36,037 nucleotides of DNA from Thermoplasmata archaeon (GTDB lineage Archaea > Thermoplasmatota > Thermoplasmata > Lutacidiplasmatales > UBA184). Shown in pieces: positions 7,025 through 29,956 of the stretch. Numbering within the stretch: position 1 is the stretch's first letter; each line of letters opens with the position of its first letter. Under the pieces are notes generated by a model. The model saw only the letters and a list, made by a program, of their open reading frames with translations. It searched no databases and had not been told where the DNA came from. The position numbers and the translations under genes are program-made. Where the stretch lies: positions 1-36,037 of the forward strand of contig DASPVQ010000017.1 of the NCBI GenBank assembly GCA_035622275.1, in the 5' to 3' direction.

Positions 7025-7127
7025 TAGCGGGGCATGGATTTGAACCATGGATCTACGGGTTATGAGCCCGTCGGGATTTCAGGACGACCGGCGGTGCCGG
7101 GCGCTTTCCTGACTACCCTACCCCGCT
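7025..7127 (-). tRNA. Initiator tRNA-Met(CAT) with 28-nt D-loop intron
   Basis: Read on the minus strand the gene has acceptor arms AGCGGGG and CCCCGCT, anticodon stem ACGGG/CCCGT with loop CTCATAA (anticodon CAT), a T arm CATGG/CCATG and discriminator A. The A1-T72 pair and three G:C pairs next to the anticodon loop mark the archaeal initiator tRNA. The D arm is interrupted; removing 28 nt (7078-7105) restores a 75-nt cloverleaf with the usual initiator D loop. CCA is not encoded. The exons are 7106-7127 and 7025-7077. A TATA element (GTATATGA on plus, 7151-7158) lies about 27 bp upstream. Confidence 0.93.
7078..7105 (-). other. tRNA-iMet intron with bulge-helix-bulge
   Basis: On the minus strand exon CAGG pairs with intron CCTG as a 4-bp central helix. 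AAA bulges lie on both sides, and inside is a stem of GCG/CGT plus CCGGC/GCCGG closed by loop ACC. Cutting after the second base of each AAA bulge gives a 28-nt intron and a normal 75-nt tRNA, placing the intron in the D loop just before position 21. This matches the splicing motif of the archaeal tRNA endonuclease at a non-canonical position. Confidence 0.85.
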
Positions 7128-7150: not shown

Positions 7151-7158
7151 GTATATGA
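7151..7158 (-). promoter_or_regulatory. TATA box for tRNA-iMet
   Basis: The sequence GTATATGA (plus strand) is centred about 27 bp before the tRNA 5' end at 7127, in a GC-rich surrounding. Confidence 0.6.
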
Positions 7159-7265
7159 AACTTCGAGTCGGAAACTCTGGGGGAGCCGCGTCGGCCGCCG
7201 CGGCGAGGCCCGGCGACCGAGCGTGTCCACGATAGCCGGGTGCGATCGGGCGCGTGCCGCAGCGC

Positions 7266-28876: not shown

Positions 28877-29956
28877 ATGAAACGCCAGATGATCGACATG
28901 CTGTCGGAGCTGATCAAGATCCCGAGCGACCCGTTCGCGGACAAGCAGGAGGTGCTCGACTACGTCCAGTCGTTCACCGACCAGATCCACATGCGCAACA
29001 CGCTCTTCGGCGACGCGCAGGCGCCGTCGCTGCTGGCCGAGTACGGCCAGGGCGGGGTCGTCCTCTCCGGTCACCTCGACACGCCGCCGGTCGGGGACTA
29101 CTGGAGCTTTTCGCAGAGCCAGCTCGCCTCGGGCCGGATGTACGGCCGCGGCGCGGCCGACATGAAGGGGACCGTCGTCGCGATGCTGGAGGCCGCGCAG
29201 GACCTGGTCGTTCGCAAGATCCCGGTCGTGCTCGCGTTCACCACCGACGAGGAGACCTCGATGCAGGGGGCGATGGCGCTCGCCAAGACACTGCCCCTGC
29301 GTCGCGCGAAAGCGGTGGTCGTCGGCGAGCCGACCGGGCTACGGGTCGCCTACGCCGAGAAGGGCGTTCTCGACCTCTCGATCGAGACGCGGGGCAAGGC
29401 CGCCCACGGGGCGATGCCCCACCTCGGCGAGAACGCGATCGGCAAGATGATGCGGATCCTGCGGGGCCTCGAGTCGTTCAAAGGGCGGATCGCCCACCCC
29501 GAGCTCGGCACGGTCACGCTCAACATCGGGACGTTCAACGGCGGCACTCGCCTCAACGTCGTCCCCAACAAGTGCACGGCCGAGGTCGACATCCGCTTCC
29601 CGCCGCCGTACACCCCCGATCAGCTTTACCACGAGATCGAGGAGCACCTGCGCCGGATCAAGACGCCGTTCACCCTTCGCCGGATCCTGTCGATGCCCGC
29701 CGTCCAGATCGATCCGAACGGCGAGCACGTGCGGATCCTGCGCGACGTCGCGCAGGCCGAGAGCGCGGTCCTCGTCCACGCCTCGGAGGCAGTCCACTAC
29801 GCCCAGGTCAACCCGCGGGTCGTGATCTTCGGCGCCGGCGAGGAGGAGCTGTCGCACCAGGCCAACGAGTACGTGAAGGTCGAGTCGGTCTCGCGGGCGA
29901 GCGAGGTCTACAAGAAGTACGCCCAGCGCCTCGCCGGCATGCGCACCCTGTCCTAG
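28877..29956 (+). CDS. M20-family metallopeptidase (ArgE/DapE-type)
   Basis: 359-residue zinc amidohydrolase of the M20 family, which deacylates N-acyl amino acids or cleaves small peptides. Metal ligands and catalytic residues are complete: His66 and Asp68 in SGHLDTPPVGD, Asp95 in GRGAADMKG, Glu125-Glu126 in TTDEETS, Glu151 in GEPTG and His327 in SHQANEY. The central dimerisation insert (about 166-280) is present. It could be an acetylornithine or LysK-type deacetylase in lysine/arginine synthesis, or a general peptidase; no neighbour decides. The ATG 28877 lies about 76 bp after a TATA-like GATTAAGAC; upstream frames are non-coding. Confidence 0.9.
   Translation: MKRQMIDMLSELIKIPSDPFADKQEVLDYVQSFTDQIHMRNTLFGDAQAPSLLAEYGQGGVVLSGHLDTPPVGDYWSFSQSQLASGRMYGRGAADMKGTVVAMLEAAQDLVVRKIPVVLAFTTDEETSMQGAMALAKTLPLRRAKAVVVGEPTGLRVAYAEKGVLDLSIETRGKAAHGAMPHLGENAIGKMMRILRGLESFKGRIAHPELGTVTLNIGTFNGGTRLNVVPNKCTAEVDIRFPPPYTPDQLYHEIEEHLRRIKTPFTLRRILSMPAVQIDPNGEHVRILRDVAQAESAVLVHASEAVHYAQVNPRVVIFGAGEEELSHQANEYVKVESVSRASEVYKKYAQRLAGMRTLS

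Follow-up and report, generated by a model that had tools for sequence, protein, structure and literature searches.

The window analyzed in this study, a 36,037-nucleotide stretch of DNA from a Thermoplasmata archaeon, was found to carry an initiator tRNA gene that is interrupted in its D loop by an intron (Table 1). On the minus strand, positions 7127–7025 read AGCGGGGTAGGGTAGTCAGGAA, the 28-nt intron and ATCCCGACGGGCTCATAACCCGTAGATCCATGGTTCAAATCCATGCCCCGCTA. By sequence reading, the exons make up a standard archaeal initiator tRNA, with an A1:U72 pair, three G-C pairs (GGG/CCC) closing the anticodon loop and a CAU anticodon. The D arm, when numbered back from the anticodon, has the stem G10-G12:C23-C25, U13.U22 and, in the spliced form, the loop A14 G15 U16 C17 A17a G18 G19 A20 A20a A21, which places the intron at ~20a/21. 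The boundary is ambiguous by up to 2 nt within AAA, and the mature tRNA is unchanged whichever position is taken. Default ARAGORN and the Rfam gathering thresholds both missed the gene in the window, where only tRNA-Thr and tRNA-Val were called. The 103-nt precursor gave no ARAGORN match and the 75-nt spliced form was identified as tRNA-Met(cat). The original prediction, that removal of these 28 nucleotides restores an initiator tRNA, was exact in its coordinates. An A/T-rich element similar to the one upstream of this gene was present at about the same distance from the initiator genes of relatives.

Table 1. Features of the interrupted initiator tRNA gene and its upstream region in the window.
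Feature	Position	Strand	Remarks
Initiator tRNA-Met(CAU) gene including intron	7025..7127	-	103 nt, 75 nt once spliced; ARAGORN, sequence reading and fold
5' exon, positions 1-20a, AGCGGGGTAGGGTAGTCAGGAA	7106..7127	-	Near-universal identity among intron-bearing relatives
Intron, 28 nt, AGCGCCCGGCACCGCCGGTCGTCCTGAA, D loop ~20a/21	7078..7105	-	Edge ambiguous inside AAA
3' exon, positions 21-73, CCA not encoded	7025..7077	-	3' half CGGGCTCATAACCCGTAGATCCATGGTTCAAATCC unchanged in almost every relative listed
Central helix, 5' strand CAGG, 17-19 region including G18 G19	7108..7111	-	Partner 7080-7083; invariant in 29/29 distinct 28-nt introns
5' splice-site bulge AAA	7105..7107	-	Fold; predicted cut 7106/7105
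Intron hairpin GCG-C-CCGGC-ACC-GCCGG-T-CGT	7084..7104	-	Covariation, controlled by shuffling and by sliding the register
Central helix, 3' strand CCTG	7080..7083	-	Fold and covariation set
3' splice-site AAA, internal loop opposite U13-U16	7077..7079	-	Fold; predicted cut 7078/7077
TATA-like promoter element TTTCATATAC	7151..7160	-	24-33 nt upstream of the initiator tRNA gene

Comparison with related genomes, which had been suggested along with the prediction, revealed that the intron is conserved in 53 genomes of three genera. These genomes (genera g1, g5 and g6) contributed 54 loci with an intron of 26–32 nt at the same site. All 11 loci from 10 genomes of the sister genera g2, g3, g4 and g7 were intronless, without exception, as was the initiator gene of an order-mate outside the family (G382), which has the same AAA in its exon. 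Across the family the exons were near-invariant around the junction (CAGG AA|A TCCC) and the intron sequences diverged. That 54 orthologous loci combine fixed exons with variable introns excludes chance as the source of the arrangement. Genomes that gave no initiator match also lacked the 5' half of the gene, except for one poor match in G007; the missing genes are therefore probably assembly gaps, and the idea that these relatives carry the intron at an alternative position is disfavored.

The gene is present in a single copy. In the genome (1.73 Mb, 29 contigs, 97.4% complete), a tolerant search with the 3' half of the initiator matched this gene and, at the limit of allowed mismatches, one unrelated tRNA-Arg; the only perfect match was at the locus itself. 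A second, intact initiator gene had been named beforehand as an observation that would count against a functional interrupted gene, and the genome-wide search found none. We nevertheless weighed whether the locus is a decaying pseudogene or an assembly error, with the intact gene absent from the assembly, as at 97.4% completeness a second copy could in principle be missing. This is extremely improbable, given that the structure is common to 53 genomes, some of them in few contigs (five each in G029 and G006, seven in G026), that none of the intron-bearing genomes listed has an intact second initiator gene, and that the exons have no signs of decay. For the relatives this explanation is already refuted, and we dropped it because there was no second initiator match in the genome and the relatives share the structure.

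In the folded precursor, the D stem (GGG/CCC) is followed by an internal loop (3x3) and then by the helix UCAGG/CCUGA, which a 3-nt AAA bulge separates from the intron hairpin. From this fold, CAGG/CCUG is the central helix of ~4 bp that joins exon and intron, and the 5' site forms a true bulge. At the 3' site, AAA sits in the internal loop (3x3 or 4x4) that adjoins the D stem, and the strict motif, which has helix-flanked 3-nt bulges on both sides, is thus not formed. The junction does have one 3-nt bulge and one internal loop with a helix of ~4 bp between them, as in the relaxed HBh' or bulge-helix-loop motif (defined as in PMC8707768 and PMC6379350). Because the 3' AAA lies opposite unpaired D-loop residues, we class the motif as this relaxed form rather than as a symmetric bulge-helix-bulge (BHB). 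The original prediction had proposed a BHB with AAA bulges on both sides of the helix; the CAGG/CCTG helix, both A-runs and the 5' bulge were borne out, and the strict BHB reading was dropped on account of the internal loop on the 3' side.

The intron hairpin is supported by covariation. Among the 29 distinct 28-nt introns, the inner hairpin was paired in 241 of 261 cells, against a mean of 218.8 ± 2.8 (SD) in 2000 shuffles, none of which scored as high; when the register was slid, the maximum was 108 paired cells. Variation was also observed in the unpaired bases at the junctions. In the 5' bulge the third base differs in G038 (AAC) and the second in G063 (ATA), and three relatives (G075, G039 and G046) have G as the second base in the 3' loop (AGA). 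Such changes (AAC in G038, AGA in the three relatives) would be expected if the varying bases are carried by the intron, with predicted cuts at AA^A. In two relatives with longer introns, G038 and G048, the central helix contains a G.A mismatch.

The initiator intron was considered a notable case when it was predicted. It does bear on the specificity of the splicing endonuclease; however, it is not isolated, as introns in the D loop or T loop interrupt 13 other tRNA genes of the genome. In total, 15 introns at these positions were found in 14 of the 42 tRNA matches in the genome (RF00005, permissive E-values), or about one third. D-loop introns are present in the initiator Met, Arg-GCG and Lys-TTT genes. 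T-loop introns, located after TTCRAA, are present in the genes for Ala-GGC, Ser-GCT, Ser-GGA, Ser-CGA, Gly-TCC, Asp, Asn, Arg-TCT, Arg-TCG, Glu-CTC, Gln-CTG and Lys-TTT, the last of which has both kinds. ARAGORN recognized each spliced form as the expected isoacceptor and missed or mis-ended the precursors. Many of these genes are overlooked or cut short by ARAGORN and Rfam at default settings, so the tRNA sets of such genomes look incomplete though they are complete. A pattern search for further T-loop introns led to no additional recognized tRNA, and genes for Leu-TAG, Pro-GGG, Pro-TGG, Glu-TTC and His-GTG were not found in this genome at permissive thresholds; these five may fall in assembly gaps or may be more strongly or multiply interrupted. 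Homologous T-loop introns and the Arg-GCG D-loop intron recur in G004, of the same genus (L301-L311, L313), and several T-loop introns, one of them in Arg-CCG, are present in G003 (L314-L319). As G003 belongs to another genus, the T-loop set appears to be older than the initiator D-loop intron.

These data bear on whether the insertion is removed at all. If it were retained, the mature initiator tRNA would have an enlarged, hairpin-bearing D arm that is never spliced, and the stability and conservation of the hairpin are compatible with this. We consider it very unlikely. The conserved G18 and G19 would stay locked in the CAGG/CCTG helix. A splicing substrate needs both the pairing of intron with exon and the A-runs that flank the insert, features that would serve no purpose in an arm that is kept. 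In addition, the D loop is of the usual form in the sister genera and the order-mate, and the T-loop inserts in the same genome could hardly be tolerated in mature tRNAs.

The genome encodes the machinery that splicing would need. There is one EndA gene, with two PF01974 domains, and RtcB is encoded as well (E = 1.6e-170). The 354-aa EndA ORF aligns across both units with the α'2 EndA of A. fulgidus, and the catalytic Tyr, His and Lys are found in the C-terminal unit (FRAY, AHARYLV and VRKEFV). With two fused units and the triad in the second, the predicted enzyme is likely of the α'2 type, which fits Euryarchaeota in the broad sense. The Crenarchaea- and ARMAN-specific loops were defined as an insertion near the active site, 11–18 residues long and containing a conserved Lys. 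In our alignment neither unit has the Crenarchaea-type insertion at the site of VEKPRGADF in Aeropyrum, and in sequence alignments the insertion was likewise absent from 21 EndAs of the family (20 relatives); the enzyme thus appears to lack a loop of either type. Twenty relatives, among them genomes with and without the initiator intron, all have the same two-domain EndA pair, which indicates that the intron arrived without a change of enzyme type.

We propose that the locus is a functional, single-copy initiator gene whose D-loop intron is cut by EndA, with the exons joined by RtcB, and that the intron was probably gained once; we put the probability of this at roughly 0.93. In the precursor, CAGG (residues 17-19) would pair with CCUG at the 3' end of the intron, and the interior of the intron would form the hairpin. 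The 5' splice site would thereby lie in a 3-nt bulge and the 3' site in an internal loop, each with the sequence AA^A, and a homodimeric (α'2) EndA could cut both. Joining by RtcB would then yield a standard initiator tRNA, with G18 and G19 freed for contact between the D loop and the T loop. That 13 further tRNA genes require the same kind of processing, and that relatives have homologous introns, supports this proposal. Against it stand the relaxed 3' side of the motif, when reviews give the euryarchaeal α2 enzymes a narrow specificity for strict BHB motifs (PMC4033280, PMC6379350), and the G.A mismatch in the central helices of G038 and G048. If the proposal is correct, protein synthesis in these archaea depends on the removal of a non-canonical intron from their sole initiator tRNA.

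Non-canonical introns have been regarded as characteristic of Crenarchaeota and Nanoarchaeota (PMC4090602), three thermophilic euryarchaeal methanogens being exceptions (PMC3218864), and were more recently found to be abundant in Asgard archaea (PMC11291895). The introns described here resemble those of Thermoproteota (Thermoproteales), Nanoarchaeota, Caldiarchaeum and Asgard archaea, which are likewise short, lie in the D and T arms (20/21 and 59/60 among other positions) and are recognized by secondary structure, often with relaxed motifs (PMC4090602, PMC3293823, PMC11291895). In Crenarchaeota and Nanoarchaeota, however, they occur with (αβ)2 EndA, whereas the enzyme here is predicted to be α'2 without a specific loop. 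According to one review, euryarchaeal α2 and α4 enzymes cut canonical BHB motifs only, and as of 2014 Korarchaeum was the only α2 archaeon with non-canonical introns, its enzyme being loop-bearing (PMC4033280); the loop model also has structural support (PMC12397907). Korarchaeum cryptofilum therefore shares with our genome an α2-type EndA and non-canonical tRNA introns and differs in having the loop. Methanopyrus kandleri and Methanothermobacter provide euryarchaeal examples of introns outside 37/38, or of several per gene (PMC4033280, PMC3218864), but the cases in thermophilic methanogens are few and the Methanopyrus enzyme is of the (αβ)2 type (PMC6379350), unlike that predicted here. Single-copy, essential initiators that are rebuilt by BHB processing are known from Thermofilum pendens (permuted, with a canonical intron) and Nanoarchaeum (split at 37/38) (PMC3218864); those genes are permuted or split, and ours is interrupted in the D loop by an ordinary cis intron. 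We came across neither an initiator tRNA with a D-loop intron nor an intron-rich lineage of Thermoplasmatota in the literature searched, which did not extend to Marck and Grosjean (2003) or Kaneta (2018).

We somewhat favor the view that, in this family, an α'2 EndA without the loop cleaves relaxed D-loop and T-loop motifs in about one third of the tRNAs, including the single initiator. This would mean that broad specificity arose in the absence of a Crenarchaea- or ARMAN-type loop and that the accepted rule of loop and intron co-evolution is incomplete; the genome would seem to speak against the strict form of that rule. The broad specificity could instead come from an unrecognized subunit, a loop-bearing paralogue or another nuclease, rather than from the α'2 EndA by itself. 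This would accommodate an EndA without the Crenarchaea- and ARMAN-type loops, to which reviews link cleavage of relaxed motifs (PMC4033280, PMC12397907). We regard such an extra factor as unlikely, as the genome has one EndA gene only, every genome tested has the same two-domain pair, and Tocchini-Valentini argue that homodimers are able to cut bulge-helix-loop motifs (PMC8707768). With 15 D-loop and T-loop introns in one genome, this apparently loop-less α'2 clade offers natural substrates with which to settle the contested rule that the loop equals broad specificity.

A tree of EndA from 21 genomes has one branch (100/100) that parts the intron-bearing from the intronless set. The simplest reading, which we consider probable, is a single gain of the initiator intron in the common ancestor of the three related genera g1, g5 and g6. 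A search of 391 genomes of the phylum, which covered introns of ~11–41 nt and D loops with CAGG, identified one further case in a genome (G392; L295, G392:C86, ~29366-29440) that belongs to a different family within the class. There, a 31-nt intron with a CAGG/CCTG helix occupies the same position in the D loop of the initiator tRNA. The two genes share initiator identity, site and helix, but the intron sequence differs and the family is distant, and the intron of G392 is probably an independent gain. Most of the other matches outside the family had CAGG upstream of an intact gene, and G392 alone was real. When the species collection was scanned for initiator genes with a gap, most of the records returned were bacterial and apparently chance matches, and the three archaeal examples that we inspected were intronless. 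In four genomes (G427, G402, G455 and G130) the initiator mismatches lie at or just past the anticodon loop, which suggests introns at the canonical position in initiator tRNAs of other families.

During these analyses, we noted other features of the tRNA genes in this genome. ARAGORN placed introns in the anticodon loops of Tyr, a Met(CAT) gene, Leu-TAA and Trp. The intron of tRNA-Trp (L041 305-470) is ~90 nt in length; archaeal tRNA-Trp introns often carry a C/D box guide RNA. Two near-identical copies of tRNA-Ile(GAT) were observed (C3:48325-48399 and C19:532-606), both near contig ends, and these are possibly an assembly duplicate.
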